From Mogibacterium sp. (lineage in GTDB: Bacteria; Bacillota; Clostridia; Peptostreptococcales; Anaerovoracaceae): a stretch of DNA of 64,000 nt. This document shows, one piece after another, positions 1,916 through 30,896 of the stretch; the first letter of the stretch is position 1; the number at the start of each line of letters is the position of its first letter. The stretch spans positions 189,502-253,501 of the forward strand of contig JAFRCS010000006.1 of the NCBI GenBank assembly GCA_017404265.1, read 5' to 3'. Under the pieces are notes generated by a model, which was given only the letters and a program-made list of their open reading frames with translations, had not been told where the DNA came from and did not search any database. The position numbers were made by a program, and so were the translations under genes.

Positions 1916-2818
1916 ATGAAGATAGCATTGACGGGAGCGAGCGGCTTCATAGGGACAGAGCTGCTTGTCGTAATGAATAGAAGAGATGACGTCAGTGTCA
2001 TCGCTCTCACAAGGGACGCTTCGGGATGTGAAGATACTGAACGATGCGAATGGCGCGGCACGGACTACTCGGAGGACAGCCTGAAGGAGGCGCTGAGAGG
2101 CGCAGACACGGTGATCCATCTGGCCGGTGTGCGCGGCACGGAAAACGACCCTGAAAAGTTTGCCGTCAATGAACAGATGACCGCGAACATTCTTGATGCC
2201 ACGGCGCACTGCGGCGCAAAGCGCATCGTTTTCGCTTCTACGATGTCAGTCTATAACGACGACGGACTGATCCCATGGAAAGAGGATGCCCCGCTGAAGG
2301 GACGTTCATGTTATGGGGATTCCAAGGCAGAATGTGAGAAACTGATAACAGACTTCGCAGAAAGGACAGGCATCACCTATGGTATCGTGCGCATAGCCCA
2401 GGTACTGGGCAAGGGTGAAAAACGCCGCGGTATGATGAATGTGTTCCTCGATACCGCACGTGACCACGGCACCATCAGGGTGATGGGCAAAAGCATCGCT
2501 AAAAAGCAGTACATATATGTAAAAGATCTTGCGGAGATCCTGATGATACTGGCCGCCGGCAACGAGAATTTAAGCGATGATGAAAATATCATCGTAAATG
2601 CCGGCATGCCTCAGGCATATACGAACCTCGAGGTAGCGCGTATAGTAAATGAGGTCTATAAAAATCCGGCTCCGATAGAATACGAAGATTCATATCCGGA
2701 AGCCGGGAGACCATTCCTGATGGATATAACAAGATTAAAAACTGCTTTAGGGTACGAGCCTCTTGATATGAGGGAAGCGGTTATGGCATTTAGAGATGCA
2801 GATACTCAGCCATATTGA
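1916..2818 (+). CDS. NAD(P)-dependent epimerase/dehydratase (extended SDR)
   Basis: The 300-residue protein starts with the Rossmann motif GASGFIG (residues 7-13) and has the SDR catalytic residues Tyr133 and Lys137 in YGDSK, with Ser/Thr near 108. The family epimerises or dehydrates nucleotide sugars. It follows the CapK-like gene by 4 bases, so it is probably translated from the same message. Its last 29 bases overlap the 3' end of the convergent decarboxylase gene (2790-3983), so the two operons are packed with no terminator between them. The sugar substrate is not determinable here. Confidence 0.8.
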   Translation: MKIALTGASGFIGTELLVVMNRRDDVSVIALTRDASGCEDTERCEWRGTDYSEDSLKEALRGADTVIHLAGVRGTENDPEKFAVNEQMTANILDATAHCGAKRIVFASTMSVYNDDGLIPWKEDAPLKGRSCYGDSKAECEKLITDFAERTGITYGIVRIAQVLGKGEKRRGMMNVFLDTARDHGTIRVMGKSIAKKQYIYVKDLAEILMILAAGNENLSDDENIIVNAGMPQAYTNLEVARIVNEVYKNPAPIEYEDSYPEAGRPFLMDITRLKTALGYEPLDMREAVMAFRDADTQPY

Positions 2819-3983
2819 AGCGTGCCGTCTCTATGCGGCTTCTCATGAGCCTGAGCTCGTTCCTTTCGTCAAGCATGTATACAGATGGAAGGTCTCTTGA
2901 AAGAAACATCGAGAAACCTTCATATACAGAATAGGCTCCGGTCCTGTAGAAGATGAGCCTGTCGCCTTCTTTAAGACCTGTGAACGCGGCACCTCTTGCA
3001 ATGACATCCGCCGTCGTGCACAGGCTTCCGCAGAGAGTCCATTTCTCTTCTTCTCCACCGGCCGATCCATCAGCAGGGATGTGTGTGATCACAGGTATCT
3101 GCATGCCCTGGATCTGACCGTCGTATTTCATTTGGTGCAGACCGCCGTCCAGTATGGCGTAGTGCGTGCCGTCGTTGAATTTGGTGTCCGCTACGGTGTT
3201 TACGAGCCATCCGCACGGAGCCGCGAAGAACCTGCCCATCTCGACTGTGAGATGGACTCTGTGCGACAATTCGCGTATGCAATCTGATATGTCGGAAAGA
3301 CGCGCGGCTTCCTTATCATCCGCGTCCGCGGCAAAATAGTCAACAGCAAGCCCCGTTCCGTACTCGATGCGCTCTGTAGTGAAACCGAGTTCTTCTTTCA
3401 GCCGGTCGATAAGCTTGTTGAGGCGCGCGATCTCCTTTATGATCTCTTTAGGTCTGGTCTTCTGTGTTCCCGTGAAATAGTGAATACCCTTTATATCCGT
3501 ACCAGGATACGAGTCTCTGTCCGCGATGACTCTGAAAACATCGCTTTTATCCATGCCGAACTGGCTTTCGCATGAAAGCCTGACCAGAACTTCAGCAGTG
3601 ATCCCCCTCTCCGACGCGGCCTTGCTGATATATCTCAGATGGTTTTCACTTTCAGCGGTTAGTATCCTCACGCCGTAGTCGATCGCCGTATTGACTTCCG
3701 CCTGTGATTTGTTGACGCCCGAGAATATGATCTTTGCGGGATCTATATCAAGAGCCCTGCAGATCTCAAGTTCGCCCGGGCTGCAGACCTCGATCTTTGA
3801 AAATTCCTCAGGCAAAACAGCGAGCAAAAAAGGATTTGCTTTTATTGAATAACAAATGTCAGTGTCTTCTCCGAAGGCTTCTTTTACCATCTTTGCTCTT
3901 GCGGCAAAGGCTTGCGCGGAGAAGACGTATGCAGGGGAAGCGACCTCCCCGAAGGCTTGTCTGAGTGCGGATTGCACGGTCAT
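2790..3983 (-). CDS. Fold-type III PLP decarboxylase, BtrK / exosortase-associated type
   Basis: This 397-residue enzyme has the alanine-racemase/diaminopimelate-decarboxylase fold. The PLP lysine is Lys48 (YSIKAN), the barrel motif HYFTGTQ is at 168-174, EMGR at 248-251 takes the place of EPGR, LCTTAD at 321-326 holds the catalytic Cys and Asp, and GAYSVYEG is at 349-356. From memory, true DAP decarboxylases read CES(G)D at the Cys site, while LCTxxD is seen in BtrK and in exosortase-associated decarboxylases that act beside an acyl ligase and carrier protein. The gene overlaps the carrier-protein gene by one base (TAATG). A carrier-bound amino acid is therefore the likely substrate; free DAP or ornithine is the alternative. 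The N-terminus could start at other codons, but this ATG fits the overlap. Confidence 0.8.
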   Translation of the reverse strand: MTVQSALRQAFGEVASPAYVFSAQAFAARAKMVKEAFGEDTDICYSIKANPFLLAVLPEEFSKIEVCSPGELEICRALDIDPAKIIFSGVNKSQAEVNTAIDYGVRILTAESENHLRYISKAASERGITAEVLVRLSCESQFGMDKSDVFRVIADRDSYPGTDIKGIHYFTGTQKTRPKEIIKEIARLNKLIDRLKEELGFTTERIEYGTGLAVDYFAADADDKEAARLSDISDCIRELSHRVHLTVEMGRFFAAPCGWLVNTVADTKFNDGTHYAILDGGLHQMKYDGQIQGMQIPVITHIPADGSAGGEEEKWTLCGSLCTTADVIARGAAFTGLKEGDRLIFYRTGAYSVYEGFSMFLSRDLPSVYMLDERNELRLMRSRIETARFNMAEYLHL

Positions 3984-4213
3984 TACTCCTCTTCCTGAAG
4001 TTTTTCGATCAGCGCGAGCATGGCCTCTGCCGAATTGAAATTCTCCGGTACGAGGTTGGCAGGCCTGATAGTGATATCGAATGCGTCGTTAAGATTGCCT
4101 ACCAGCGATATGATATCGAACGAATCGAGTATGCCGCCGGTAACAAGGGATTTCTCAGCTGCAAAGTCAACGTCAGGTCTGAGTTCTTCCAGGATCTCCA
4201 TCAATTCTTCCAT
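3983..4213 (-). CDS. Acyl/peptidyl carrier protein (DltC-like)
   Basis: This is a small acidic 76-residue carrier protein. Ser31 in ILDSFD is the expected phosphopantetheine site, with the usual DS context, and the length matches DltC and stand-alone ACPs. It lies between a DltA-like adenylation enzyme (25 bases upstream) and the decarboxylase, whose start codon overlaps its stop by one base. It most likely carries the residue activated by the ligase as a thioester for decarboxylation and for transfer by the MBOAT protein. It is unlikely to be the fatty-acid ACP, because no fatty-acid genes are near. Confidence 0.85.
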   Translation of the reverse strand: MEELMEILEELRPDVDFAAEKSLVTGGILDSFDIISLVGNLNDAFDITIRPANLVPENFNSAEAMLALIEKLQEEE

Positions 4214-4238
4214 TTTTGATTCCTCCAGTTCTGTTTTA

Positions 4239-5759
4239 TTATTTCATCATTTCTTTTAATTCACTCATCGCGATCTTGCCGTTAGGCAGATGAGGCATCT
4301 CATCGAGAGCCACCAGTTTGCGCGGTACCATAAAGGCCGGCATGTCCGCTCTGAATCTCAGTGTTATCTCTTTTGCGGTCGCAGGACCTGCATAGAACAG
4401 ATAGATCAGTTCACGTGCTTTGTCGTAGAGAGACGCGCATTCTGTGACGCCGTCTACGGTCAGAGCATACGCCTCGACTTCGGCGAGCTCGACTCTGTGG
4501 CCCATGTGCTTTATCTGCCTGTCCATGCGGCCGTGGAAGTACAGTTCGCCATCCTCTCCGATATGCCCGAGGTCGCCGCAGAGATATATCATCTCCGGAT
4601 AATCGTCATTCAGAGGATTCTGCATGAAGACCTTTTCGGTCTGCTCTTTTGATCTGTAATAACCTATCGCAAGGCATGGACCCTTGACGCATATCTGGCC
4701 GATCTCTCCGTCCGGAGTCTCGGACCACTCGCCGCTTTCTTCGTCATGCGTGAGCAGCAGTATCTGATAATGCTTATATGGCCTTCCGATAGGAAGCACG
4801 GTATCATCTGTGACAATGTCCTCGAGCACATAATATGTGCATGACGCGGTCGCTTCCGTAGGACCGTACTGGTTTATGAACGTCACATCCGGGAGATTTT
4901 GCTGCCAGACGCGAAGATACTTGTTTGATATGACCGAGCCGGAGAACACGATTCTTTTAAGATGCTCAGGCTTGCTTTCAGCAAATCCGCCAAGCTTTGC
5001 CGGGATCTCAAGACCCGCGCAGCTCCAGCACAGTGTAGTAACATTGTAGTCGTTGAGTGTCTTGAAAAGGGCGTCAGGCATAGCGAATTCGTTCTTCGGT
5101 ACCATAACGGTGCTCGCGCCTCTCATCAGAGGCAGGTACATATCCCTGATAGCCGCTATGTAGTCAAGAGGGGCCTGATTGCCAAGCACATCGCTCTCAT
5201 CAAGTCCAATGATCTCATCGAGGCCTTCGAGATAGCAGATCAGGGAACGGTGGGACGTGAGCACGCCCTTAGGCTTTCCTGTCGAACCCGAGGTAAAGAT
5301 CATATAGAGAGGAGAGGATTCGGTAACGGAAGCTTCTCTTGCCGCGACGAGATCTTCATCCACCGGATACGCGAGCAGATCTTCCATCAGAGCGATCTCA
5401 CAGTCTCCGGCAACGGCTTCAGCAGTCGCAAGATGCGCTTTATCGACGATGACTATCGCTGGCTCGGCTACGCTCATTATCTGCTCGAGCCTCTGGCGCG
5501 GCACTTCCGCGTCCATCGGAGCGTAAAAACAACCCGCGCGGGCCACACCCATGTAGCAGGCAGGCGTGAACACGTCGCGGCCGGACATGACGGCAACGGG
5601 ACGCTCAATGCCGGAGCGCTGCGCGACCCATGTCGCGACTGCCGCGGAATAACGTTCCACTTCTTCAAACGATACAGATTTTTCCGTGTCCGTATAGACG
5701 GTCCTGCTGCCATATGAAGCGGCTGAACGTCTTATCCAGTCAAATACCTGTGATGCCAT
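4239..5759 (-). CDS. DltA-like amino acid/acyl adenylation enzyme
   Basis: This 506-residue adenylate-forming ligase has all core motifs: A3 FTSGSTGKPKG (155-165), A5 NQYGPTEAT, A7 CGDLGHIGEDG, the hinge GRMDRQIKHMGHRVE, and the A10 lysine Lys495 in LPNGK. It loads its substrate on the carrier protein encoded just downstream. In the A4 region (residues 194-206) the chain reads NQAPLDYIAAIRD. DltA enzymes, as I recall them, have an FDLS Asp here that binds the alpha-amine of D-alanine; here that position is hydrophobic and an Asp sits two residues earlier. So I do not call it D-alanine ligase. The family could equally be the exosortase-associated acyl ligase. Confidence 0.85.
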   Translation of the reverse strand: MASQVFDWIRRSAASYGSRTVYTDTEKSVSFEEVERYSAAVATWVAQRSGIERPVAVMSGRDVFTPACYMGVARAGCFYAPMDAEVPRQRLEQIMSVAEPAIVIVDKAHLATAEAVAGDCEIALMEDLLAYPVDEDLVAAREASVTESSPLYMIFTSGSTGKPKGVLTSHRSLICYLEGLDEIIGLDESDVLGNQAPLDYIAAIRDMYLPLMRGASTVMVPKNEFAMPDALFKTLNDYNVTTLCWSCAGLEIPAKLGGFAESKPEHLKRIVFSGSVISNKYLRVWQQNLPDVTFINQYGPTEATASCTYYVLEDIVTDDTVLPIGRPYKHYQILLLTHDEESGEWSETPDGEIGQICVKGPCLAIGYYRSKEQTEKVFMQNPLNDDYPEMIYLCGDLGHIGEDGELYFHGRMDRQIKHMGHRVELAEVEAYALTVDGVTECASLYDKARELIYLFYAGPATAKEITLRFRADMPAFMVPRKLVALDEMPHLPNGKIAMSELKEMMK

Positions 5760-5805
5760 ATGTGTTCTCCTTTAACAATTAATAGAAACAGATATACGCG
5801 TATTA

Positions 5806-6972
5806 CTAGTCGTTCGCGCGTTCAGTTATCATTTCGAGCAGACGAGGGGAATCCGCGAGAGTCCTGACTTCACCGTTCGCGATCATCTCTTCCGCGATGT
5901 CGCACAGTATCTCGTAGTAGGCCGCAGCCTTGTCCCAGTCTTCACTGAGAGAGGCGTCGAGCTCTGAAGGCCCGATACCCATCTCGTCCTGTATGTATTT
6001 TCCAAGATATTCAGTGATCTTCTTCTGTCCGCGCACATTCGGATGGCTGCGGTTGTAATAATCGGTGGTCTCATCCAGACCTATATCGTAGAACGCTTTC
6101 TCAAGATCGAGGGTCGCGCACCCCTTGCTTTCCGCGAGTTCAAGGACGCTGTTCATGCGTTTGTTCGCATTGAAGTCCTTAGGGTAAAGCATCACGGAAG
6201 GATACTTCACAAAGAGTACCGGGATGCCCTCATCGCTGCAAAAATCGATGAAATCAGTAATGATCTCTTCAGTATTCTGGTCAAGCTCGATCTTGTCGGA
6301 TGAAAAACACTCTTCATCCAGCGGTTTGAACTCCTCCGCGTCTGTTATGGTCTCAACGCCTTTCAGCGGAGAAGGGCCATAACTGTCGATTGCCATTCTT
6401 TCCTGTATGCTCAGAAGGTTGGAAGGGACCTTCGTGTGGTACCTGATGAAAGGGAAAGCATAGCTCAGCGCGTCGCTTTCGTCCGACCGTACGCTCATTT
6501 CATATGCTGTTTCCATTCTCTCCGCGGAGAGAGGGGTGTAATTGCTGAGCATATAAAGCGGATACTTGCGGCTGCGGACCGTGTCGGCATCGTAGCCTCC
6601 GCCAAAGGTATCTATAGCGATGAGCTTTGGTTTCTGAGTCCAGAGAGCTTTCTTGACAGCCGGTTTCCACGCCGTGCATGATGAGCCGGCAATGACCAGC
6701 GGATACGATGTATAGCCGAATTTCCCGTACGCGTAGGCCGATGAGAAGCCTGAATATGACTGGCTCGATCCGAGAACCAGGACGTCTATACTGTTTTCAG
6801 GCTCCTTGCCGAACTGGATTATGCGTGTTACATCCGTGGTCATAGGAATGCAGAGGTAATACTGCATGAAAGAAACAGCCGAAAGTACTATAGCCAGCAA
6901 CGCTGCCACCGCTATAGTCCTTTTCAGATATTTTTTTCTGTTCGATTTTATTTCAGGCTTAGTTTCAGTCAT
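5806..6972 (-). CDS. Membrane-anchored SGNH/DltD-like protein
   Basis: The 388-residue protein has one N-terminal membrane segment (about residues 18-40) and an outside domain. GSSQS at 68-72 gives the block-I serine, and SHPN at 309-312 gives the His, with Asp residues just before it (DETTDYYNRS), as in SGNH hydrolase-like proteins. Such proteins partner MBOAT acyltransferases (DltD with DltB, AlgJ/AlgX with AlgI) and help hand the acyl group to a cell-surface polymer. The MBOAT gene ends 8 bases upstream. It is clearly divergent from classical DltD, so the call is by motifs and context. Confidence 0.75.
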   Translation of the reverse strand: MTETKPEIKSNRKKYLKRTIAVAALLAIVLSAVSFMQYYLCIPMTTDVTRIIQFGKEPENSIDVLVLGSSQSYSGFSSAYAYGKFGYTSYPLVIAGSSCTAWKPAVKKALWTQKPKLIAIDTFGGGYDADTVRSRKYPLYMLSNYTPLSAERMETAYEMSVRSDESDALSYAFPFIRYHTKVPSNLLSIQERMAIDSYGPSPLKGVETITDAEEFKPLDEECFSSDKIELDQNTEEIITDFIDFCSDEGIPVLFVKYPSVMLYPKDFNANKRMNSVLELAESKGCATLDLEKAFYDIGLDETTDYYNRSHPNVRGQKKITEYLGKYIQDEMGIGPSELDASLSEDWDKAAAYYEILCDIAEEMIANGEVRTLADSPRLLEMITERAND

Positions 6973-6980
6973 TTTTGTGA

Positions 6981-8621
6981 TTAGAACTGCATGTAAACGA
7001 ATTCAGCAGGGTCATACAAAGGCCCATATGTGCCAAGCACAAGCACCAGCATGATAAGGCCGAGAAGAGCCAGCCACTGTATGAATCCGCTGCGTCTCTC
7101 CAGAAGCTCCCCAGGAGTGTCCAGTGAAGTTATTTCGAGCCTTATGCTTATATACAGCAGGATCATCGCGCCAAGCATGATAGTCGCGTACTCGGTCTTA
7201 TAGAGCCCCAGAGTCTTGATCTGCTCCATGAAAACGCTTTTGTTCTGATCACTTATGATGAGTTTCATCATCTGTATGGCGTTAGTGAAATTATCCGCTA
7301 TGTCGAAAATGTAGCCTATGAGAACGATGACGAATGTCCTAAGCATCTGGAAAAGTTTCCACCATGCCGCCTCGCTGTTTATGTGCAGCGCATTGCGTGA
7401 TTTGTCATAGACCGGACCGAGCATCGCGGAGAGCATGATGATGAGACCGTTCCACACACCGAATCCAATGTATTTGCTATTGGCTCCATGCCATATACCG
7501 ACGCAGAGGAAAACTATGAACGATGCCATCGCGGTAGTGAAGACCTTTGAAAGGTGCTTGCCCGCGGCGGTCTTTCCGAATGATGATCCCGCGATCGCCG
7601 CGCTGATGCGTTTTGAGAGATCTGACATCGCGATAGGGTAGAAGACGTAGTTCTTCATCCACGCGCCGAGGGTAATGTGCCACCTGCGCCAGTACTCGCT
7701 TATGGACTTTGAGAAGTACGGCTGGCGGAAGTTGACCTCGAGTTCGATGCCCATGATCCTGCAGATACCCCGTGAGATATCGATGCCGCCCGAGAAGTCC
7801 GTATAGAGCTGAAGCGCGTAGAGGAGCGAAATGAACAGCACCATCGTTCCTCCGTAGCCTTCAAAATCAGCGGTGCCGTTCAGCCCGCCGTTTGCGTAAT
7901 AAGCCTTGATGCCTCTCCAGGCACAGTCGGCGATAACGAGTTTTTTGAACAGTCCCCAGAAAATGTTCATAACGCCCTGCTTGAAATTGATCCATTCAAG
8001 CTTGTGCTCTCCGATGAGCTGGCTGTGCAGCTTGTTATAAGAGCTGATAGGCCCCTGTATTATCTGTGGGAAGAAAGAGACGAATAGAGCGAACTTGAAT
8101 ATATTCCTTTCCGGCTCAACGGTCTCTCTGTATACGTCGATTAGATAGCCGGTGGCTATGAAGGTATAGAAGGACACGCCAAGCGGAAGAAGCAGGTGGA
8201 TCTGCGGCGCTTCGTCAGGCGATCCTCCAAGCAGCGACGCTATGCTGCCGGAAAAGAAATTGAAGTATTTAAGAAGGAAGAGTATGCCGAAATTCAGGAT
8301 GAGGCAGGCGGCGAGTACGCGGCGCCTTTTCTTTTGAGAAGCATCCTTGAAAGCTTTTTTCTCTTCTTTTGACCACTCGGCCTTGTGATTCTTTACCTCA
8401 GCTTTTGTATATTTGGAAATGTCGGCCATCTTAGTGGCAGCCAAATATATCGTGATTATGGTAACGAGAATGAATACCGTGTACTGAAAACTGTTATAGA
8501 CATAAAAAAAACTGCTCGCAATCAGAAGCACTACCCACTGGTATTGCTTCTTTGGAACAGCAAAATAAACGATACCCGTTATAATTGCAAAAGCCGCAAA
8601 CGGGAGAGATGTCAGTGCCAT
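6981..8621 (-). CDS. MBOAT family membrane O-acyltransferase (DltB/AlgI-like)
   Basis: This 546-residue polytopic protein carries the MBOAT signature: the motif with His315 (WRRWHITLGAWMKNYVFYP region) and the invariant His378 in GIWHGAN. These enzymes move an acyl group from a cytosolic thioester to an extracytoplasmic hydroxyl. Just downstream on the same strand are the SGNH partner, ligase, carrier protein and decarboxylase, which gives a complete dlt-like order. A charged loop rich in Lys (about 70-100) lies between the early membrane segments. The start ATG has a GAGGGGG site about 10 bases upstream, and a promoter-like pair is in the gap before it. Confidence 0.9.
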   Translation of the reverse strand: MALTSLPFAAFAIITGIVYFAVPKKQYQWVVLLIASSFFYVYNSFQYTVFILVTIITIYLAATKMADISKYTKAEVKNHKAEWSKEEKKAFKDASQKKRRRVLAACLILNFGILFLLKYFNFFSGSIASLLGGSPDEAPQIHLLLPLGVSFYTFIATGYLIDVYRETVEPERNIFKFALFVSFFPQIIQGPISSYNKLHSQLIGEHKLEWINFKQGVMNIFWGLFKKLVIADCAWRGIKAYYANGGLNGTADFEGYGGTMVLFISLLYALQLYTDFSGGIDISRGICRIMGIELEVNFRQPYFSKSISEYWRRWHITLGAWMKNYVFYPIAMSDLSKRISAAIAGSSFGKTAAGKHLSKVFTTAMASFIVFLCVGIWHGANSKYIGFGVWNGLIIMLSAMLGPVYDKSRNALHINSEAAWWKLFQMLRTFVIVLIGYIFDIADNFTNAIQMMKLIISDQNKSVFMEQIKTLGLYKTEYATIMLGAMILLYISIRLEITSLDTPGELLERRSGFIQWLALLGLIMLVLVLGTYGPLYDPAEFVYMQF

Positions 8622-8717: not shown

Positions 8718-9671
8718 CTAGTTATCCGAACGTTCTTTTTTGTCCCCGTATATCTCGCGCACCACGTATTGCGGATAGTTGCCCATCGTCAGGAACATCC
8801 TCCCCACATATTCTCCGACTATGCCGAGCGTCAGCAGGATTATGCCCGAGAATATGATTATGGTCATCATTGTGGATGTCCAGCCCAGGATCTTAGTCTT
8901 GCTGATGATCTTACGGATCAGCAGCCAGACAAGACCAAGCACTCCGCAGGCTGTTGTGAAAATTCCGATCTTTTGCGCAAAGATAAGAGGGACGACCGAG
9001 AAGCCCGCGATGTTTGACCAGAGGCTGAGAAGCTTTTTAAGTGTATAACCTGATTCGCCGGAGACTCTCTCGAAGTGCTCGATAGGCACACTTGCGATGC
9101 GGTCAGCCGATACAGTCCTCAGGATGAGTCCCTGCATCTGTGTGTAGTGAGCAGGGTATGTGATGATGCTGTCCCTTACGTACTTCTTCATCATGACGAA
9201 GCTGGAAGTCTTCATATCCTTTGGCTTTCCGATCAGGACCCTTACGCTCATATGAGTGAACCAGGATCCGAAATTCCTGAAGCCGGAATGCTTTTTGTCA
9301 GCGTAGTAGCCGTATACTACGTCATGATCATCATCCAGACCGCCAAACATGGTGTCAAGCTGCGAAGGATGGGTCTGACCGTCGTCATCCATCAATATGA
9401 TGACATCACCTTTTGCGTAATTGAGTCCGCAGATTATGGCGTTGTGCTGCCCCACGTTGTGAGCGAGTGCGATCGCGGTTACGCAGTCATGGTCTCCGGC
9501 CAGACTTCTGAGTTCTCTGACTGTCTCGCCGCTGTCCGGAGAGAAATCGTCCACAAGAATGAACTCATAAGGAGTCCTGCCGAGGCGATCAAGTTCAGCC
9601 ATTGTTTCTTCGACTACTTTTCTTATTGTATGCGCCGATCTGTAGCACGGTATCACTATCGAATAACTCAT
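8718..9671 (-). CDS. ArnC/DPM-like family 2 glycosyltransferase
   Basis: The 317-residue protein has a GT2 domain at the N-terminus (SIVIPCY, then LVDDFSPDSG and the DDDGQTHPSQ active-site stretch) and two C-terminal membrane segments near 230-295. The family charges undecaprenyl phosphate or dolichyl phosphate with one sugar on the cytosolic face. It is a clear paralogue of the protein at 22724-23674: both share SxxTIRKVVE, the NxGQHNA box, DDDxQTHPSQ and the SGYTxxKLL box. It is the first gene of the minus-strand operon, with a good promoter and a GGAG-type site upstream, and 96 bases separate it from the MBOAT gene. Confidence 0.85.
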   Translation of the reverse strand: MSYSIVIPCYRSAHTIRKVVEETMAELDRLGRTPYEFILVDDFSPDSGETVRELRSLAGDHDCVTAIALAHNVGQHNAIICGLNYAKGDVIILMDDDGQTHPSQLDTMFGGLDDDHDVVYGYYADKKHSGFRNFGSWFTHMSVRVLIGKPKDMKTSSFVMMKKYVRDSIITYPAHYTQMQGLILRTVSADRIASVPIEHFERVSGESGYTLKKLLSLWSNIAGFSVVPLIFAQKIGIFTTACGVLGLVWLLIRKIISKTKILGWTSTMMTIIIFSGIILLTLGIVGEYVGRMFLTMGNYPQYVVREIYGDKKERSDN

Positions 9672-9882: not shown

Positions 9883-11478
9883 ATGAAGAAGAGACTTGTG
9901 TCCATATTGCTGACAGCCATCATGGTACTCGGTGCTTTCGGCACTTTCGCATTCGCGGAGAATGAAGCACCTGCAGCCGGTTCGACTGACAGCCAGGGTA
10001 CAGAAGAGATAACAGAACCTGCACCTTTGGCTAAAGGCGCAGAAGACGGTGAAACGGAAACGGGGACAGTGAATCTCAGCGCGACCGCGGTCGCAGGTCC
10101 TTTATCTGCAACGGTAAGCTGGACTGCTGATGCGCAAGGTCTTACCTACAAAGTGACCCCGACCGTTGACGGAACAGAAAAAGATACTGTAAATGTAGCC
10201 GGAACGAGCTATGATCTGAAAGGCCTCAGAGAGGGCACCATAGTAAGCTTTAAGGTAGCGGCATTCAATGGAAGTGAGGAGACTCCTGTTGCCGAGGTCA
10301 CATCCAATGAAGTGGAAGTGGAAGGTCTCAGCGTGACCGCGACACCGGGTTCCTTATCGGTAATTGCCAGTTGGACTGCAGATGCGGAAGGGATTACCTA
10401 CAAAGTGACTCCGACTGTTGACGGAATAGAAAAAGATCCTGTATATGTGACCGGAACGAGCTATGAAGAGAAAGGCCTTATGGAGGGTACCAAGGTAAGC
10501 TTTAAAGTAGAGGCATTCCTTGATGATGAGCTTATTGCAACGGCCTATTCTGAAGAAGTGGAAGCCGGCAAGATCGCTGCTCCGTCCGGAGTGAAAGCTT
10601 TCTGGTCGTATAACAGCGTAGCTCTCGAGTGGGAGCCTGTTGAAGGTGCTGTAAAGTACTGGATCTACAAAGACGGTAAGCATGTCAAGAACGCAAATCC
10701 TGACTCGACTGCGTATGATGTCATTGATCATGAAGGAAAAGTGTCCAGCATTTTATGGAACATCAAGGACGATAATTATCATAAATTTTGCGTCAGAGCC
10801 ATGGCAGAAGACGGTTCTTTGTCAGAAAAGTCTGAAATAAAGAACGCTAAGAGAGTTACCCAGATGTACATCCAGGTAAGATTCAGAGTTGCCCGCGACC
10901 TGACCTCACACGACGGATATGGCAAGACGCACTACTTCCCAAAGGGAACAAAGGTAACAGCTTTCGGATTCGGAGGAGGAAAGTACAAATTCTACTATAA
11001 TGGTTATCTGTATTGGGTCTCCTATCTGAACACAGACTGGGCAAAAGCTATCACGGCTAAGACGGACGGATACAGCTGGAACTGGAACAAGAAAGAGGCC
11101 GAATACTTCATCAATACATCCGGAGTAACAAGCCCTACACAGTACTATTTCTGGGTAAGTCCGTATGTACAGCACGTTTACGTTTTCAAGGGATCCAAGG
11201 GCAAATGGAAACTTTATGATGACTGGGAATGCAACACAGGTGCTGCCGCGACACCTTCTCCTACGGGCTGGGACAAGTCCATATATAAGAAGGTATGGAG
11301 AAGAAACGGGCACGGACCATGGTCAGCATTCCAGTCCTGGACTTCATTCCATGATATACGGTTCACGAGTGAACCTCTGGGATCCCCGATATCCCATGCA
11401 TGCGTAAGATGTCCTAATGACAGAGCGGATTGGATCTATTATTCAGTACCTTATAATACAAGAGTTGCTGTTTACTAA
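9883..11478 (+). CDS. Secreted L,D-transpeptidase (YkuD) with FN3-like repeats
   Basis: The 531-residue protein begins with a signal peptide (MKKR, hydrophobic core, FAFAEN cleavage region). Two near-identical FN3-like domains of 84 codons follow (starting about 10072 and 10324), then a third, more divergent one from about residue 230. The C-terminal quarter is a YkuD domain: His490 in SFHDIRF, and the nucleophile Cys507 in SHACVR, then a W-x-Y/VP/TRV tail that matches the family end. Such enzymes make 3-3 crosslinks or attach proteins to peptidoglycan. The usual motif is SHGC, so Gly is replaced by Ala506 here. The gene stands alone between its own promoter and a strong terminator. Confidence 0.8.
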   Translation: MKKRLVSILLTAIMVLGAFGTFAFAENEAPAAGSTDSQGTEEITEPAPLAKGAEDGETETGTVNLSATAVAGPLSATVSWTADAQGLTYKVTPTVDGTEKDTVNVAGTSYDLKGLREGTIVSFKVAAFNGSEETPVAEVTSNEVEVEGLSVTATPGSLSVIASWTADAEGITYKVTPTVDGIEKDPVYVTGTSYEEKGLMEGTKVSFKVEAFLDDELIATAYSEEVEAGKIAAPSGVKAFWSYNSVALEWEPVEGAVKYWIYKDGKHVKNANPDSTAYDVIDHEGKVSSILWNIKDDNYHKFCVRAMAEDGSLSEKSEIKNAKRVTQMYIQVRFRVARDLTSHDGYGKTHYFPKGTKVTAFGFGGGKYKFYYNGYLYWVSYLNTDWAKAITAKTDGYSWNWNKKEAEYFINTSGVTSPTQYYFWVSPYVQHVYVFKGSKGKWKLYDDWECNTGAAATPSPTGWDKSIYKKVWRRNGHGPWSAFQSWTSFHDIRFTSEPLGSPISHACVRCPNDRADWIYYSVPYNTRVAVY

Positions 11479-17814: not shown

Positions 17815-19056
17815 ATGGCTAATTATTATCTTGGAAAAATAATAGAAGCGTTGTTGATAAGCAGCGTGGTCGCATTCCTGACTACGCCTTTAAGCATTCG
17901 CCTGGCCCACAGGCTGGGAGTGATCGACAGGCCTAAGGATGCCAGAAGAGTCCATAAGAAGCCGATCCCGCGCTTTGGCGGAATGGCGATCTTTTTGGGC
18001 TCAATGGTGACCATGTTTATTCCTGCAGGCATGAATGACAAGATCAGGATCGCCATGATAGGCGGGCTGCTGATGTATCTGCTGGGGATAGCCGATGACA
18101 TACTGGATATCAAGCCGGCAGTCAAATTCCTGGGGCAGTTCGGTATAGCGAGCTTGGTTTTTGTGCTTGGAGTCAGGATAACGTTCATCAGCAACTACTT
18201 CGGAGCCGCTGTCACGGATCCGCACGCGAACGTTGTGCTCAGCTCCGGGGTCGGATATCTGATAACCGTGCTGTGGATAGTCGGAATAACCAACGCTGTG
18301 AACCTGATGGACGGACTGGACGGTCTCGCGGCCGGATCGGTGGCAATAATGTCTCTTTCGCTGGCGTATATCGCGTACATCCACGGAGCAAGGATCGGAT
18401 CGATGCCGGTATGCATCGCTCTGGTAGCTATAGCCGGCGGATGCCTTGGGTTTTTGCCTTACAATTTCTCGCCTGCCAAAACCTTCATGGGCGACGGAGG
18501 AGCGCTTTACCTCGGATATATGATCGCTGTTCTTTCTGTCATATCTCCGCTCAAGAGGGCGACGGTAGTCGGAGTTCTGGTCCCTGTGCTGACGCTGGCA
18601 GTGCCTATCTTCGATACATTGCTGGCGATGCTGAGACGCACTCTCAAACATGAGTCGATAATGAAAGCTGACAAAGGGCACCTGCATCACCATCTGATGG
18701 CCGCAGGCTTCGGACAGAGACGTTCCGTACTGATCATGTATGGTATCGTGGGCATCATGGGCGTCGTAGCAGTGCTGATCAGCCGCGAACTTTACAAAGA
18801 TGCGTTCTTCCTGTTCATGATAGCGGTGCTGTATCTATGCATAATAATCGTTCCTAAAAAGCCTAAAAAGGGCATCAAAAGGATCATCACACAGGATGTA
18901 AGCGAGCTCGAAAAAGAGTATTTTACTGAATACCTCAACTATGAGAGGGAAAGACGCAAAGAACTGCGTGAGGCGGCTAAGGCTGCCGCTGAAGCGGAGG
19001 CCGATAGGGAAGAAGCCGCTATGAAAGAGGCTCAGGCCAAAGAAACGGAAATATAA
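17815..19056 (+). CDS. Undecaprenyl-phosphate sugar-1-phosphate transferase (WecA/TagO-like)
   Basis: This 413-residue member of the MraY/WecA family has about 11 membrane segments. It carries the N-terminal RRVHKKPIPRFGG box, the NLMDGLDGLA catalytic Asp region, FMGDGGALYLG, and the HLHHHL motif. It starts lipid-linked glycan synthesis by adding HexNAc-phosphate to undecaprenyl phosphate. An extra tail rich in Lys, Glu and Ala follows the last helix. The nearest strong ribosome site (AAGGAG, 17784-17789) is about 25 bases from the ATG, and a TAA directly before the ATG forbids an upstream start. The LCP gene starts 1 base after its stop. Confidence 0.9.
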   Translation: MANYYLGKIIEALLISSVVAFLTTPLSIRLAHRLGVIDRPKDARRVHKKPIPRFGGMAIFLGSMVTMFIPAGMNDKIRIAMIGGLLMYLLGIADDILDIKPAVKFLGQFGIASLVFVLGVRITFISNYFGAAVTDPHANVVLSSGVGYLITVLWIVGITNAVNLMDGLDGLAAGSVAIMSLSLAYIAYIHGARIGSMPVCIALVAIAGGCLGFLPYNFSPAKTFMGDGGALYLGYMIAVLSVISPLKRATVVGVLVPVLTLAVPIFDTLLAMLRRTLKHESIMKADKGHLHHHLMAAGFGQRRSVLIMYGIVGIMGVVAVLISRELYKDAFFLFMIAVLYLCIIIVPKKPKKGIKRIITQDVSELEKEYFTEYLNYERERRKELREAAKAAAEAEADREEAAMKEAQAKETEI

Positions 19057-19057
19057 T

Positions 19058-20365
19058 TTGGAAAAAGATAAAGAAAAAAAGAAAAGAAGAAAAAAAGAAG
19101 CTGAAGCCGGGAAGCACGGAGTGAATGATAAGAAAAGTGTGTTCCCGCGCAAGCCTGCATACATGATCGCCATAATGCTGATGGGTGTGGCAGCGATAGC
19201 TTTTTTTGCCATGATGATAATTGCCGACATCCTTCCGCCGGATCTGACGATAATCGTGTCGCTGATCGTGACAGCGCTTTTGGTGCTTACATGCCTGATG
19301 TTTGCGAGCAAGCGCCGCTGGAAGAGGATCACGGGCATAGTGCTCGCACTGGCATTCGTTCTGGTGATCTCGACGGTCACGAGTTTCATGGCCAGCACAT
19401 ACAGCACGCTGGAGGAGATCAGCGCGACCAGAACGAACGCAACCGGACCGGTAGCGAAGTCCGTGAATGTAACGGAAGAAGCGTTCAACATCTACATTAC
19501 GGGAATAGACCAGTGGGAGTGTGAAAAAGGCCTCGATCTTGAGAGAAGCGACGTAAACATGATCGTTACGATCGATCCAAGGACCAAGAAGATACTCCTC
19601 ACTTCGATCCCGCGCGACACCTACGTCAGGCTCCATACCGCTCAGCAAATGGACAAGCTGACGCATACCGGAGTCTACGGAATCGAGGAGACTCTGTCCA
19701 CGGTAGAAGACTGGCTGGGCATAGACATCAATTATTATGTAAAGATGAACTTCAGCGCTACCAGAGACATCATAGACGCGATGGGCGGCATCAGAGTTTA
19801 TTCGCCGGCGACTTTCGACAGCAGCCTGAAGGAAGAATATCATTATGATCAGGGATGGAACCTGATGGGCGGCAATCGCGCTTTGTATTTCGCAAGAGAA
19901 AGGAAAGCCTTTGAAGGCCAGGATTCTGTAAGAGTAGAGAACCAGCAGAGAGTTGTAGAGGGAATGATCGACAGGATGACTTCATCGACAACACTGCTTA
20001 CTCATTACGGAGACATAATGAATGCCGCCGGTGACAATCTTACGACCAACCTGTCCGCAGATGATATGACGGAGCTGGTCAAGATGCAGATCACCAATCC
20101 TGTCAAATGGGACGTTGAGACCCAGAAGATAGAAGGCGAATACGACATGGACTACGTAGCGTCCCTGACACAGAGCCAGAAGTTCTCTGTCTACAGAGCT
20201 GACCCTGCATCCGCAAGAAAGTGCGTTGAAGCCATACAAAGCGTGCTGAATCCGAAGGCCGGCGAGATCGAGGCGGCAGAAAAGAACAGCAGCAGGAGCT
20301 TTGTTGTCAATTATATAAATCACCTGGTCGACAGCTATAAAAAGATAAAAGACAAAGAAGATTAA
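19058..20365 (+). CDS. LytR-CpsA-Psr (LCP) family wall-polymer ligase
   Basis: This 435-residue protein has a very basic N-terminus (KDKEKKKRRKK), about three membrane segments, and an outside LCP domain beginning near NIYITGID, with SDVNMIVTIDP and the phosphate-binding SIPRDTYV motif. LCP enzymes transfer lipid-linked polymers to peptidoglycan. It begins with TTG one base after the priming transferase stop, so the first and last steps of one polymer pathway are encoded side by side. No strong ribosome site is seen, so coupling is likely. Confidence 0.9.
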   Translation: MEKDKEKKKRRKKEAEAGKHGVNDKKSVFPRKPAYMIAIMLMGVAAIAFFAMMIIADILPPDLTIIVSLIVTALLVLTCLMFASKRRWKRITGIVLALAFVLVISTVTSFMASTYSTLEEISATRTNATGPVAKSVNVTEEAFNIYITGIDQWECEKGLDLERSDVNMIVTIDPRTKKILLTSIPRDTYVRLHTAQQMDKLTHTGVYGIEETLSTVEDWLGIDINYYVKMNFSATRDIIDAMGGIRVYSPATFDSSLKEEYHYDQGWNLMGGNRALYFARERKAFEGQDSVRVENQQRVVEGMIDRMTSSTTLLTHYGDIMNAAGDNLTTNLSADDMTELVKMQITNPVKWDVETQKIEGEYDMDYVASLTQSQKFSVYRADPASARKCVEAIQSVLNPKAGEIEAAEKNSSRSFVVNYINHLVDSYKKIKDKED

Positions 20366-20373
20366 CTACCGCG

Positions 20374-21579
20374 ATGAGCAACACTTTGAATAAAAAGGGC
20401 CTGAGGATCACAGACATCCTGTATGCGGCTGCGGTCGCGGGCCTGTCATCGATATGCTACAAACTGTTTTACAGGATGGCGACAAATTATCACGGAAAAT
20501 ACCCGTCAGATTTTCCGTGGTATATTAATTTGCCTGTTTCTGAATATAAAGAAAGATACAGACTGCTCGGATGGCTGTTCGACATCATCTGGAGGCACAG
20601 TCACGAGATAACGGGAATGGTCGTTTATCTGGCCGCTGTGATCGGATGTATCGTTCTGATGAATTTCGTATTCCTGAGGTTTTATACCGGACAGTCAGGA
20701 ACAAACAGGGCGGCACTCCAGCTGGCATCTTTGCTGGTGCCTTTCATAGGCCCTGTTTACGTGCCGGGGATCCACGAATTCTATTACAGATGGTCGTTCC
20801 AGATATTTGCCTGGCATTCCCCTACAGAACAGTCCATGATCCTATGCAGCCTGATCGCGTTTTTATGCTTCGTAAAGATGTATGAAGAGAGCGATAACGG
20901 CGTAAGTTTAAAGAACTGGATATTTGCCATGCTCTCGGGGCTGCTGTCGGCGTTCGCGAAACCGGCATTCATCATCGACCTTATCGTCGCGATGATATGC
21001 CTGTTCCTGATAGATCTGTTCACGGTGAAGGGAAAGAGCTTCATCAAAAGGTTCAAGGAACTCTTTATCATGGGGTGCTCACTCATACCTTCGGGCGTAT
21101 ATATGCTCGTCATAATGAAGTACAGCTTCAACGGAGAGGGTGATCTTCATGAAGGAGAAGTCAAGGTCGATCTTACCCATGTGCTTGAATATAAAAACCT
21201 GCTCGCTGCAATAGTATGCGGACTCGCGTTTGCCATCGTTGTCTGGGCGGTGAATATAAAGCTGCTCCGGGAGAAGAGATACAGGACGGTATTCGCGGTG
21301 TTCCTTGCGGGCATCCTTCAATGGGCTCTGTTCGTTGAGGACGGAGACAGGGCAACGCACGGCAATTTCACATGGGGAAGGCAGATCGGATGCTATCTTC
21401 TGGTTATCACAGCCGTTGCGATAGCTTTCAATAATCTGAAAGACGAAAACTTCATGGCGGGCAATAAAAAAGCCAGAACAGCTTACTTTGCCATTCTGGC
21501 CGTGCTGCTGCTGTTGCATATAGGTTCACAGCTGCATTACTTCTATCTCATATGTACGGGACACGGCTATATGCTGTAA
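20374..21579 (+). CDS. Polytopic membrane protein of unknown function
   Basis: This 401-residue protein has about nine or ten hydrophobic segments and is encoded 8 bases after the LCP gene. Loops contain ATNYHGKYPSDFPWYINLP and a short acidic loop (GEGDLHEGEVKVD). It has the look of a GT-C glycosyltransferase or a Wzy-type polymerase, but I recognise no diagnostic motif. Its last 13 bases overlap the 3' end of the convergent gene at 21567. Position in a polymer operon with a priming transferase and an LCP protein supports a role in glycan assembly. Confidence 0.55.
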   Translation: MSNTLNKKGLRITDILYAAAVAGLSSICYKLFYRMATNYHGKYPSDFPWYINLPVSEYKERYRLLGWLFDIIWRHSHEITGMVVYLAAVIGCIVLMNFVFLRFYTGQSGTNRAALQLASLLVPFIGPVYVPGIHEFYYRWSFQIFAWHSPTEQSMILCSLIAFLCFVKMYEESDNGVSLKNWIFAMLSGLLSAFAKPAFIIDLIVAMICLFLIDLFTVKGKSFIKRFKELFIMGCSLIPSGVYMLVIMKYSFNGEGDLHEGEVKVDLTHVLEYKNLLAAIVCGLAFAIVVWAVNIKLLREKRYRTVFAVFLAGILQWALFVEDGDRATHGNFTWGRQIGCYLLVITAVAIAFNNLKDENFMAGNKKARTAYFAILAVLLLLHIGSQLHYFYLICTGHGYML

Positions 21580-22538
21580 TTCAGGACCGCGTCAGCGATG
21601 ATGCGCATCTCCTTTTCACCGTAGCGCTGGTCTACAGGGAGAGGGAGTATGTTAGCCGACCACTCGTATTCAAGGCTGCCTTCGGGCAGCTTTTTTAACA
21701 GGTAAGACCAGTTGGTCGGAACAAAGATATTCTGCGCTGCGAGATGCTTTCTGAGTTCGACTCCGTCCGGATGGTGGAAAGGATACGCGAACGGCGCCGA
21801 AGGCATGTGTCTGTTGAACGGGTTGTCATCCGGCAGCAGGTTCTGTAGGATCCTGTAGTTTTCACACCTCTTCTGCCGCACATAGTCATAATCTATGCCG
21901 CGGAGAAGGTTTTCTGTAAGCAGAGACATGCGCTTGGGCGTTTCGCTGCCGAAAGAATCCGAGACGGCAAGCATCTCTCCGTAATGGCCCCTGGCGTTTT
22001 CTTCGAGACGGCCGGTCAGATGGCTGATCCTTCCGCCGGATACATCCGTCTCCATGCTGTCATAGTCGACCGGGATGCTGCTCGCAACATAAGCTCCGTC
22101 ACTCAGTCCGAAGTACTTGCGCGCAGTATATATCGTATGGATGCCTTCAAGGCTGACAGGAGCGTCATAGAACGCCTGCGCGTTGTCCACTATCATAAGA
22201 GGGTATCTGTCGTGATACTTCAGGATATCTTCTTCCGTCAGCTGGCCATAGAAACTCACAAGGTAGAAGATGTCGTCCCTGCCAGGTTCACCGGCCGGGC
22301 CCCAGACAGGCTCAAGGGATCCATCGAGGGCGTATCTGACAACTTCAAAGCCGGCGGCCTCGGCGCTGTCCGGAACGGAATTGCATATGTATTCAGGTAT
22401 GAAGACCCTTCTGTGCTCGATGTTTCTGAGAAGCCATACTAAAGCGGTCCTTCCGAGGTTGAATTTATGAAGGGATCCGTAAAGTTCGTTCCCTCTGAAA
22501 TTCTCGAGCTCCATGTATCCGCCTATCTCTTTTGGCAT
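21567..22538 (-). CDS. Short DegT/DnrJ-like PLP-dependent protein
   Basis: The 323-residue protein has the fold-type I aminotransferase layout of the DegT family: FIPEYICNSVPDS, the pyridine-nitrogen Asp in VDNAQAF, and the PLP-site stretch TARKYFGLSDGAYV with a likely lysine. It is about 50 residues shorter than WecE and lacks the usual SxHxTKN box, so it is a divergent branch that could be a sugar aminotransferase or a related dehydratase. AAAAGGAGG stands upstream of the ATG. On the minus strand a TATAAT at 22600-22605 could belong to its promoter; the -35 is poor. It is a single gene convergent with 20374-21579. Confidence 0.65.
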   Translation of the reverse strand: MPKEIGGYMELENFRGNELYGSLHKFNLGRTALVWLLRNIEHRRVFIPEYICNSVPDSAEAAGFEVVRYALDGSLEPVWGPAGEPGRDDIFYLVSFYGQLTEEDILKYHDRYPLMIVDNAQAFYDAPVSLEGIHTIYTARKYFGLSDGAYVASSIPVDYDSMETDVSGGRISHLTGRLEENARGHYGEMLAVSDSFGSETPKRMSLLTENLLRGIDYDYVRQKRCENYRILQNLLPDDNPFNRHMPSAPFAYPFHHPDGVELRKHLAAQNIFVPTNWSYLLKKLPEGSLEYEWSANILPLPVDQRYGEKEMRIIADAVLNYSI

Positions 22539-22648
22539 TTTGCCGCCTCCTTTTTAAACGACAGCCCCCGCGCAGGCAGGGGGATCATATATTGAAATGA
22601 TTATACCAAAACGAGCCTGTCATAGAAACACGCAAGAGCACTGATATC

Positions 22649-22677
22649 TTGCGGACAAACTGCGCGTAAGGTATAAT
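22649..22677 (+). promoter_or_regulatory. Promoter of the GT2/ATP-grasp/SMR/YfhO operon
   Basis: TTGCGG (22649-22654), 17 bases, perfect TATAAT (22672-22677), then an A/G-rich leader with AGAAGGAG before ATG 22724. Confidence 0.65.
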
Positions 22678-22723
22678 TTCTGCAGTATGTAAAGATCCAG
22701 ACAGAAGGAGAACAAGACCGGTT

Positions 22724-23674
22724 ATGCTGATATCCATAGTCATTCCATGCTATTACTCCGAAAAGACCATCCGCAAGGTTGTGGAAATGGTGATGGATGA
22801 ATTCAATAAGAATCCGGGATATGAGTGTGAGTTCGTTCTGGCCAATGACGGGTCAACTGACGGCACTTTCGATGAGATCCGCAAGCTCAGCAGGGAACAC
22901 TCAAATGTAAAGGGAGTAAACCTGATGAGGAATTTCGGCCAGCACAACGCCCTGATGGCGGCTCTCCGGTATACGGAGGGCGACTACGTGCTTGGCATGG
23001 ATGATGATATGCAGACGCACCCTTCGCAGATATTCAAACTGATCAACAGGATACAGGAGGGCGATTTCGATCTGGTCTACGGCATCTATCCGGAGGTCAA
23101 GAACGGACCGATAAAGAACCTTACAAGCAAGATCAACAGAAAGACGTCACGAGTGATGCTGGGACGCCCAAAGGATATCACATCCAGCAACTTCTGGATC
23201 ATCACCAGTGCCATCAGGGATGAAGTCATCAAGTTCGATACCTTCAATCCGTATGTGGATGCCATATTCTACAGGGCTACCAGCAATATTGGCATGGTCC
23301 CGGTAGAGCACTTCAAGAGAGAGTACGGCCAGTCCGGATACACCTTCAGAAAACTGCTGAAGCTCTGGATGGCATACTGGAACTTCTCGGTGGTGCCGCT
23401 GAGGATGTCTTTCTTTGTGGGCATGTTTTCCTTCCTTGCGGGCATACTTTTCACGGTCTATATCATCATCAACAAGATCATTTCGCCAGACCTTCCGGTA
23501 GGATGGTCATCGACCATATGCATCCTTGCATTGCTCTTCGGTGTTGTGCTGATGATGCTCGGCGTGATAGGTGAATATCTGGGTAAGATAATCCTTATAC
23601 TTAACAAGACTCCTCAATTTGTCGTAAGGGAAACTGTCGGGATCGATAAAGACAGAATACAGGAGGAAGCGTGA
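22724..23674 (+). CDS. ArnC/CsbB-like undecaprenyl-phosphate glycosyltransferase (GT2)
   Basis: This 316-residue protein has a GT2 domain (SIVIPCY; DDDMQTHPSQ) followed by two membrane segments near 225-290. It is a paralogue of the protein at 8718-9671. The family makes C55-P-sugar for later flipping. It leads an operon with an ATP-grasp gene, a pair of SMR-type flippase halves and a YfhO-type GT-C protein, the parts of a three-component extracytoplasmic glycosylation system. The next gene overlaps its stop (TGATG). Confidence 0.9.
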   Translation: MLISIVIPCYYSEKTIRKVVEMVMDEFNKNPGYECEFVLANDGSTDGTFDEIRKLSREHSNVKGVNLMRNFGQHNALMAALRYTEGDYVLGMDDDMQTHPSQIFKLINRIQEGDFDLVYGIYPEVKNGPIKNLTSKINRKTSRVMLGRPKDITSSNFWIITSAIRDEVIKFDTFNPYVDAIFYRATSNIGMVPVEHFKREYGQSGYTFRKLLKLWMAYWNFSVVPLRMSFFVGMFSFLAGILFTVYIIINKIISPDLPVGWSSTICILALLFGVVLMMLGVIGEYLGKIILILNKTPQFVVRETVGIDKDRIQEEA

Positions 23675-24885: not shown

Positions 24886-25244
24886 AAAACTATCTGCTTC
24901 TGCATATGTGTGTCATGATATTCTCCTTCACGAGCGTTTTCGCAAAGTTTGCGGCAAACGCCTATAACGAAGGAGGATTTCTGAATTACAAGTTCTTTCT
25001 GTTTGTGTTCCTTATGCTGCTGATCTGCGTCCTTTACGCGTTCTTCTGGCAGAAGGTCATAAAGAACGTCGATCTTCATGTCGGTTATGCCAACCGCAGC
25101 GTTTATCTGATATGGGGACAGATCTGGGCGATCACCATATTCGGCGAACATCTCTCCTTTAAAAACGTAATAGGACTTCTGGTCGTGCTGGCCGGAGTTC
25201 TCATCGTTACGCTGAATACCAATTATGAGGAGGATGATGCATGA
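24873..25244 (+). CDS. SMR/EamA-type four-helix flippase subunit (ArnE/F-like), first half
   Basis: The 123-residue protein has four membrane segments and an SMR-like fold; the last helix carries GLLVVLAGVLIVTL, close to EamA/SMR ends. It starts within the ATP-grasp gene and overlaps the next SMR gene by 4 bases (ATGA). Paired SMR proteins of this type (ArnE and ArnF) move undecaprenyl-phosphate sugars to the outer face. The family also includes drug and guanidinium exporters, but the context argues for a lipid-sugar flippase. Confidence 0.75.
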   Translation: MGKVKNYLLLHMCVMIFSFTSVFAKFAANAYNEGGFLNYKFFLFVFLMLLICVLYAFFWQKVIKNVDLHVGYANRSVYLIWGQIWAITIFGEHLSFKNVIGLLVVLAGVLIVTLNTNYEEDDA

Positions 25245-25576: not shown

Positions 25577-25588
25577 TTAAACGGACGG

Positions 25589-30818: not shown

Positions 30819-30843
30819 ATTGAACATTTAAAGTAAGTATAAT
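30815..30843 (+). promoter_or_regulatory. Promoter of the rpsF-ssb-rpsR operon
   Basis: TTGAAT (30815-30820), 17 bases, perfect TATAAT (30838-30843). It overlaps the stop codon of the carboxypeptidase gene. Confidence 0.75.
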
Positions 30844-30851
30844 AACCGAGC

Positions 30852-30896
30852 GCGTCAATAGGGACGCACTACCTACTGCACCGGGAGAGCCGGTGC
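30852..30896 (+). promoter_or_regulatory. Structured rpsF leader, candidate S6:S18 autoregulatory site
   Basis: Two hairpins lie between the promoter and rpsF: GCGTC/GACGC (30852-30856 with 30863-30867) and GCACCGG/CCGGTGC (30878-30884 with 30890-30896). Ribosomal proteins S6 and S18 are known to bind a CCG-containing leader in many bacteria; position and CCG fit, but I cannot confirm the full consensus. Confidence 0.4.

Follow-up and report, generated by a model that had tools for sequence, protein, structure and literature searches.

A minus-strand operon in a stretch of 64,000 nucleotides from Mogibacterium sp. (contig JAFRCS010000006.1, positions 189,502 to 253,501; hereafter, the window) encodes an MBOAT acyltransferase, an SGNH protein, an adenylating ligase, a carrier protein, and a fold-III pyridoxal phosphate (PLP) decarboxylase. 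In our assessment, the best explanation of this five-gene set, and a fairly probable one, is that decarboxylation of an amino acid bound to the carrier feeds acylation of the cell envelope. The gene content, conservation, motifs, and phylogeny on which this proposal draws were observed directly. The host genome spans 1.83 Mb, and the locus is almost identical to one (L049) from a goat-gut metagenome-assembled genome (MAG) of Mogibacterium sp.

The genes are transcribed in the order MBOAT, SGNH, ligase, carrier, decarboxylase, with intergenic gaps of 8, 46, and 25 bp and an overlap of 1 base (TAATG) between the last two; the 3' end of the decarboxylase gene overlaps a convergent epimerase gene by 29 bp. 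This tight single-strand arrangement of the five genes, including the 1-base overlap, had been described in the original prediction and is confirmed by the open reading frames, domain models, and a structure model of the SGNH protein. Pfam and NCBIfam searches supported the MBOAT, AMP-binding, PP-binding, and Orn/DAP decarboxylase domains, and all operon proteins scored by family models fall outside every named family tested at the NCBIfam cut-offs. Scans for promoters and terminators gave signals no stronger than expected by chance. We denote loci of the window form type A, a divergent clade with decarboxylases of 33-41% identity type B, and modules without a nearby decarboxylase type C. The features of the operon are as follows:

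6981-8621, minus strand: MBOAT acyltransferase, 546 amino acids (aa), DltB-like but under the DltB cut-off; Pfam MBOAT, 60 bits
6984-7001, minus strand: C-terminal FVYMQF hexapeptide of the MBOAT (acyl-shuttle motif), with Tyr543 at 6993-6995
5806-6972, minus strand: predicted membrane-anchored SGNH acyltransferase, 388 aa; N-terminal helix 12-40, Ser70, His310
4239-5759, minus strand: adenylating ligase (carrier loading), 506 aa; AMP-binding, 205 bits
5145-5165, minus strand: ligase pocket residues Asp199, Ile201, and Arg205 (positions 233, 235, and 239 of PheA), invariant in type A
3983-4213, minus strand: carrier protein, 76 aa; PP-binding, 21.1 bits against a cut-off of 20.8; phosphopantetheine Ser31 at 4121-4123
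2790-3983, minus strand: fold-III PLP decarboxylase, 397 aa; PF02784, 88.9 bits, and PF00278
3006-3029, minus strand: decarboxylase motif GSLCTTAD, counterpart of LCTPxD in BtrK, VinO-type, and TIGR03099 enzymes
3231-3242, minus strand: decarboxylase motif EMGR, counterpart of EPGR in LysA

Conservation and types of the module

A scan of genome contigs with the decarboxylase yielded 289 relatives, the best 80 of which, used here to assess type A conservation, come from Mogibacterium-like MAGs, Ruminococcus (including R. bromii YE282), Lachnospiraceae, Eubacterium, and Oscillospiraceae. In the 56 well-flanked loci (at least 2.5 kb before and at least 4 kb after the decarboxylase), the decarboxylase is linked with a carrier gene in all 56 and with a ligase gene in 55, as in the carrier-dependent type of this enzyme; an MBOAT gene adjoins it in 52 and an SGNH gene in 49. 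The complete set in the order ligase-carrier-decarboxylase-MBOAT-SGNH was found in 48 of the 56, the window order, with MBOAT and SGNH first, being an exception among type A loci. Type B loci come from other families of Clostridia and contain all five genes in 11 of the 12 cases fetched, often as ligase-decarboxylase-carrier-MBOAT-SGNH. Because the genes stay linked in nearly all of the well-flanked loci and the full set recurs in 11 of the 12 divergent ones, a chance association is excluded. Across 391 Clostridia genomes sampled evenly over the class, the decarboxylase family is present in 14, in 13 of them as the type B form.

Type C modules occur in congeners of the window organism (L159, L160, and L161; genomes G009, G006, and G026) with the order SGNH-MBOAT-ligase-carrier, and searches of these genomes with the window decarboxylase gave matches of LysA level at best. 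They occupy the chromosomal place, beside WecA and LCP genes, where other congeners carry type A with its decarboxylase. Type C probably arose by loss of the decarboxylase because it nests within type B in the ligase tree.

Some loci depart from the five-gene pattern. In L035/L051 and L037/L053, one ligase-carrier-decarboxylase trio is found with two MBOAT-SGNH pairs nearby, as though one loaded carrier fed two acceptors; in L035/L051, the trio has a pair on either side, so that the window may have lost one MBOAT-SGNH copy. In L058/L059, the trio lies beside a sulfatase-family gene resembling lipoteichoic acid synthase, and a transglutaminase-domain lipoprotein is encoded where the MBOAT usually sits.

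The decarboxylase

In a search of the PDB, the closest solved structures to the window decarboxylase were two structures of BtrK (best E-value 1.3e-31), ahead of all diaminopimelate (DAP) decarboxylases. In the phylogenetic trees, type A decarboxylases alone and types A and B together are each monophyletic (100/100), and LysA forms a separate clade (100/96 to 100/99); the clade containing the window enzyme sits on a long branch, and the order of its deep branches has a support of only 59/75 in the tree of types A and B. The motif alignment shows LCTPxD in BtrK, BtrK-like, VinO-type, TIGR03099, and siderophore enzymes, LCTTAD in the window, and CESGD or CETSD in LysA, with GSLC[TS]xxD present in type B as well. 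At the second motif, BtrK and VinO-type enzymes have ESGR, most other carrier-linked enzymes ELGR, the window enzyme EMGR, and LysA EPGR. The distal LysA motif (Arg before Pro-Ala-Leu-Tyr) is missing from the window enzyme, which has KYDGQ at this position. Taken together, these motifs, the clearest of the evidence on the decarboxylase, suggest a carrier-dependent fold-III enzyme of the BtrK/VinO type; they are indicative rather than exclusive because the carrier-type reference L169 has EPGR and one siderophore enzyme has LCTPxD.

The core residues of GSLCTTAD and EMGR, along with Lys48, His168, Glu248, Arg251, Cys322, and Tyr351, are conserved in at least 97% of the 80 type A relatives; given this retention of the catalytic residues, the decarboxylase is probably active. 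A glycine loop GTGL instead of GGGxG is an oddity of its clade. Assignment to LysA was rejected by the score (TIGR01048, 186.5 bits against a cut-off of 297.9), the motifs, the position in the tree, and the presence of a separate LysA in the same genome (row L001 in the decarboxylase tree). The TIGR03099 model likewise scored below its cut-off (176.1 against 478.45).

The original prediction had set the enzyme apart from LysA, pointing to LCTTAD in place of CESGD and EMGR in place of EPGR, and both statements hold. It had also sought the place of the enzyme relative to BtrK, TIGR03099, and LysA and assumed the logic of carrier-bound decarboxylation. The position outside LysA and the match of the ligase/carrier/decarboxylase set to BtrK and VinN/VinL/VinO agree with this, but in the present trees the decarboxylase falls inside neither the BtrK nor the TIGR03099 branch and groups in a clade of its own.

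The ligase and its pocket

The ligases of types A, B, and C form one clade that is sister to DltA (support 97/96). The window ligase scored 238.6 bits with the DltA model TIGR01734 (cut-off 559.85) and 156.5 bits with TIGR03098 (cut-off 592.35). The pocket stretch reads LDYIAA(I/V)RD in type A (LDYIAAIRD in the window), FDFDVSVKD in types B and C, and FSFDLSVMD in the DltA of congeners; DltA has Ser, Asp, and Met or Ser at positions 233, 235, and 239, respectively. An Asp at 233 and a basic residue at 239 are common to all three types of the module. In type A, the amino-binding Asp235 is replaced by Ile and position 239 is an invariant Arg; type B has Asp235 and Lys239, and Asp235 is also retained in VinN-type and TIGR03098 ligases. 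The identity as a D-alanine ligase was rejected, the score lying far below the DltA cut-off and the D-alanine pocket not being conserved; as far as sequence tells, the earlier view of a ligase that is not of the D-alanine type is borne out.

Judged by these residues, the type A pocket suits an acidic amino acid that is activated at its side chain, with the second carboxylate left free: because Asp235 is lost and Arg239 gained, a substrate whose amino group lies far from the activated carboxylate would fit. VinN loads 3-methylaspartate as a beta-amino acid (PMC11284099; PMC11253843), and, by analogy, glutamate activated at its gamma-carboxylate would fit type A. The type B code could fit aspartate activated via the beta-carboxylate or, alternatively, ordinary alpha-activation. 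A nonribosomal peptide synthetase code for glutamate, with Lys at 239, was not confirmed in the literature searched and was not used as evidence.

The carrier, MBOAT, and SGNH proteins

The carrier contains a DSF motif, with Ser31 kept in at least 97% of the type A relatives, and scored 31.8 bits with the DltC model (cut-off 68). The MBOAT scored 134.7 bits with the DltB model TIGR04091 (cut-off 375). Its WHG (His378) and RWH motifs are conserved in types A and B, and His378, Phe541, Tyr543, and Phe546 are present in at least 97% of the relatives. Nearly all full-length type A MBOATs terminate in F[VI]YxxF; in type B, most end with PIYAxF or FIYGGF. In DltX and in the MBOAT PatA, an FXYXXF motif serves as the acyl shuttle, its Tyr passing the acyl group on to the SGNH protein (PMC12148441). 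Systems with a fused FXYXXF motif are said to lack a carrier (PMC12148441), evidently because they use acyl-coenzyme A (acyl-CoA); in the window module, the fused motif occurs together with a carrier protein. A separate DltX microprotein was not found in the operon, whose intergenic gaps leave no room for one; the motif sits on the MBOAT.

The SGNH protein has no significant Pfam match of its own. An AlphaFold model built with 37 relatives reached a predicted local distance difference test (pLDDT) score of 94, compared with only 42.5 in a single-sequence run, and was matched by Foldseek to SGNH esterases, PatB, and DltD. Ser70 is invariant and His310 nearly invariant among the 37 relatives; the residue located 3-4 positions before the catalytic His is Asn in the window and most type A proteins and Asp in type B. 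According to the model, the MBOAT of the module therefore has a partner of SGNH fold, in which Ser70 and His310 are the predicted catalytic residues. That the group is transferred to an acceptor in the envelope had been anticipated and appears to be implied by the MBOAT and SGNH pair with its acyl-shuttle motif: the C-terminal FVYMQF peptide, which the original prediction did not mention, would provide an explicit route from the carrier to Tyr543 of the MBOAT, to Ser70 of the SGNH protein, and to the polymer.

Just before the window on the same contig (L047:12765-15397), a second MBOAT, ending in FIYFNF, is encoded with an AlgX-like SGNH partner and no adjoining carrier genes. This pair is probably of the acetyl-CoA-dependent O-acetylation type and constitutes a natural control in the same genome.

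Proposed pathway and alternatives

The pathway that we propose, including its reactions, substrate, product, and acceptor, would consist of four steps. First, the ligase would adenylate an acidic amino acid at its side-chain carboxylate (most probably L-glutamate at the gamma-carboxylate, with aspartate as the second choice) and load the activated acid onto the Ser31-phosphopantetheine of the carrier. Second, the PLP decarboxylase would strip the free alpha-carboxylate from the tethered substrate, giving an omega-aminoacyl thioester, that is, gamma-aminobutyryl (from gamma-aminobutyrate, GABA) or beta-alanyl. Third, the MBOAT would use His378 to take the aminoacyl group off the carrier and pass it through the membrane onto its C-terminal FVYMQF peptide, at Tyr543. 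Fourth, Ser70 of the SGNH protein would accept the group and esterify a polymer of the cell wall or one linked to the membrane; like D-alanylation, this would add positive charge. The likely product is a wall polymer esterified with an omega-aminoacyl group (GABA or beta-alanyl); for the substrate change itself, glutamate to GABA is our best single guess and is offered as such.

The same proteins could act in a different order, the decarboxylase first converting an untethered amino acid and the ligase then loading what it makes, for example free GABA or, from DAP, lysine; the carrier would then host no chemistry. Enzymes for free DAP, ornithine, lysine, and arginine belong to the same superfamily, and the type C ligases, close to those of type B, work without an adjacent decarboxylase. 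We nevertheless consider this order unlikely: the basic pocket residue (Arg or Lys at 239) fits a free carboxylate, not a bare amine, the decarboxylase motifs match those of carrier-dependent enzymes, and the genome already encodes a DAP enzyme, LysA. In the vicenistatin pathway, VinN rejects the decarboxylated product, and VinO requires the thioester (PMC11284099).

Several observations weigh against carrier-bound decarboxylation feeding envelope acylation. Type C has a ligase, carrier, MBOAT, and SGNH protein of this kind and no decarboxylase, which means that the transfer machinery does not need that enzyme. The type B code (Asp235, Lys239) could also suit an acidic amino acid activated in the ordinary way at its alpha-carboxylate, in which case alpha-decarboxylation on the carrier would be impossible in that type. 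In the present trees, the decarboxylase clade nests within neither BtrK/TIGR03099 nor VinO. In Ruminococcus, the neighbors of the module are mostly housekeeping genes unrelated to wall polymers, which point to no particular acceptor, although this is expected, by analogy, of a self-contained module such as dlt. Finally, DltA is present in 17 of the 391 Clostridia genomes and none has both DltA and the decarboxylase, but this non-overlap is suggestive only, not statistically significant (about 0.6 genomes expected by chance), and one congener, G001, encodes both. In favor of the proposal, canonical DltA was not found in the window genome.

The carrier-bound chemistry could also be as proposed and serve a different acceptor, for example a lipid of the membrane, a glycolipid, or a small molecule destined for export. 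Alternatively, the trio could supply other transferases as well. The Ruminococcus neighborhoods agree with this possibility, as do the trios lacking an adjoining MBOAT and SGNH gene (L052, L109, and L111) and L036, where two ATP-grasp genes associated with sugar transfer follow the trio. Against it, the pair of a fused-shuttle MBOAT and an SGNH protein is typical of envelope polymer acylation (PMC12148441), two of the three tested genomes having a trio without an adjacent MBOAT encode a close MBOAT elsewhere, and the module lies beside WecA and LCP genes in the window's genus; we therefore regard a non-polymer acceptor as improbable. In congeners, the module (type A or C) has WecA/LCP genes on one side and an acyltransferase-3 gene with rpsF on the opposite side, which suggests as acceptor, in this genus, a wall polymer primed by WecA and attached by LCP; the window counterparts of this flank map to 17815-31209.

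That the operon performs ordinary D-alanylation, with a LysA paralog adjoining it by accident, is very improbable: the named families nearest to the ligase, MBOAT, and carrier include DltA, DltB, and (weakly) DltC, but all three scores are far below the cut-offs, the D-alanine pocket is not conserved, whereas true DltA in congeners keeps it, and the decarboxylase, outside the LysA clade, stays with the carrier in all well-flanked loci and in the second clade.

Neighboring genes and related loci

The 17815-31209 region of the window is a wall-polymer island, encoding a WecA/TagO-type transferase, an LCP protein, a glycosyltransferase family 2 (GT2) protein, an ATP-grasp protein, two small EamA-like transporters, a YfhO-like membrane protein, and an acyltransferase 3 next to rpsF. 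Upstream of the MBOAT gene, on the same strand and after a 96-bp gap, lies a PgfS/ArnC-like GT2 gene (8718-9671) that may be co-transcribed with the operon; it is not conserved alongside the five-gene module. Divergent from the operon, 9883-11478 encodes a secreted protein of 531 aa with an fn3 domain and a C-terminal L,D-transpeptidase (YkuD) domain. In L036:8159-17986 (genome G004), the trio without MBOAT and SGNH genes and the two ATP-grasp genes are accompanied by genes for a GT2 protein and a MatE exporter, and this trio may also supply another pathway.

Comparison with known systems

The features tested place the module outside dlt, LysA, and the exosortase-A trio. With dltABCD (and DltX), it shares a ligase, carrier, MBOAT, and SGNH protein, ligases that are sister clades, and the acyl-Tyr shuttle chemistry; it differs in the added decarboxylase, the lack of the D-alanine code in the ligase, the fusion of FXYXXF to the MBOAT, which in dlt resides on the separate DltX microprotein, and scores below the cut-off for all models. 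The VinN/VinL/VinO system of vicenistatin and similar macrolactam starter trios resemble it in combining a standalone adenylating enzyme, a carrier, and a PLP decarboxylase, with a beta-amino acid loaded and then decarboxylated on the carrier. These trios, however, feed a polyketide synthase, their VinN-type ligases keep Asp235 and use Lys or Arg at 330-331 (PMC11253843), and their decarboxylases belong to another clade.

In the BtrI/BtrK system of butirosin, BtrK shares LCTxxD, is the nearest solved relative of the window enzyme, and is described as acting on a glutamyl-carrier (title of PDB 7ru7), but it belongs to a separate clade, and the system makes an antibiotic side chain, not an envelope component. 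The exosortase-A pair TIGR03098/TIGR03099 has an adjacent ligase and decarboxylase near polysaccharide genes (L165), with LCTPxD and ELGR motifs; its ligase keeps Asp235, and no MBOAT-SGNH pair was seen in L165. Membership in this trio was rejected, with both window scores far below the respective cut-offs. The ligase of the butirosin system is presumably of a different type from that of the window. The O-acetylation systems of MBOAT and SGNH proteins (PatA/PatB, AlgI-type) likewise have an MBOAT with a C-terminal FXYXXF peptide and a separate SGNH transferase, but use acetyl-CoA where the window module has a carrier and a loader. By analogy, the module would best be called a dlt-like pathway with a BtrK/VinO decarboxylation step built in. 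A literature search for the five-gene set or for GABA or beta-alanine esters on teichoic acid, with subscription papers outside its reach, returned nothing relevant.

Implications

D-alanylation is the textbook route of Gram-positive bacteria to positive envelope charge and resistance to cationic peptides, and few Clostridia in the even class sample carry DltA. More tentatively, at somewhat less than an even chance, the module may represent a widespread, undescribed envelope modification of Clostridia, in which esters of omega-amino acids (GABA or beta-alanine) would be made by carrier-tethered decarboxylation, exported by a carrier-fed MBOAT with its own shuttle peptide, and replace D-alanylation in gut lineages without dlt. 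If so, rumen and gut Clostridia, Ruminococcus bromii among them, would possess a conserved five-gene alternative that accounts for surface modification in some of these bacteria, and there would be a new ester to seek in the polymers of Clostridia. Carrier-bound decarboxylation, a chemistry of antibiotic pathways, and envelope acylation by MBOAT-SGNH pairs are known only separately, and the module would then join the two.

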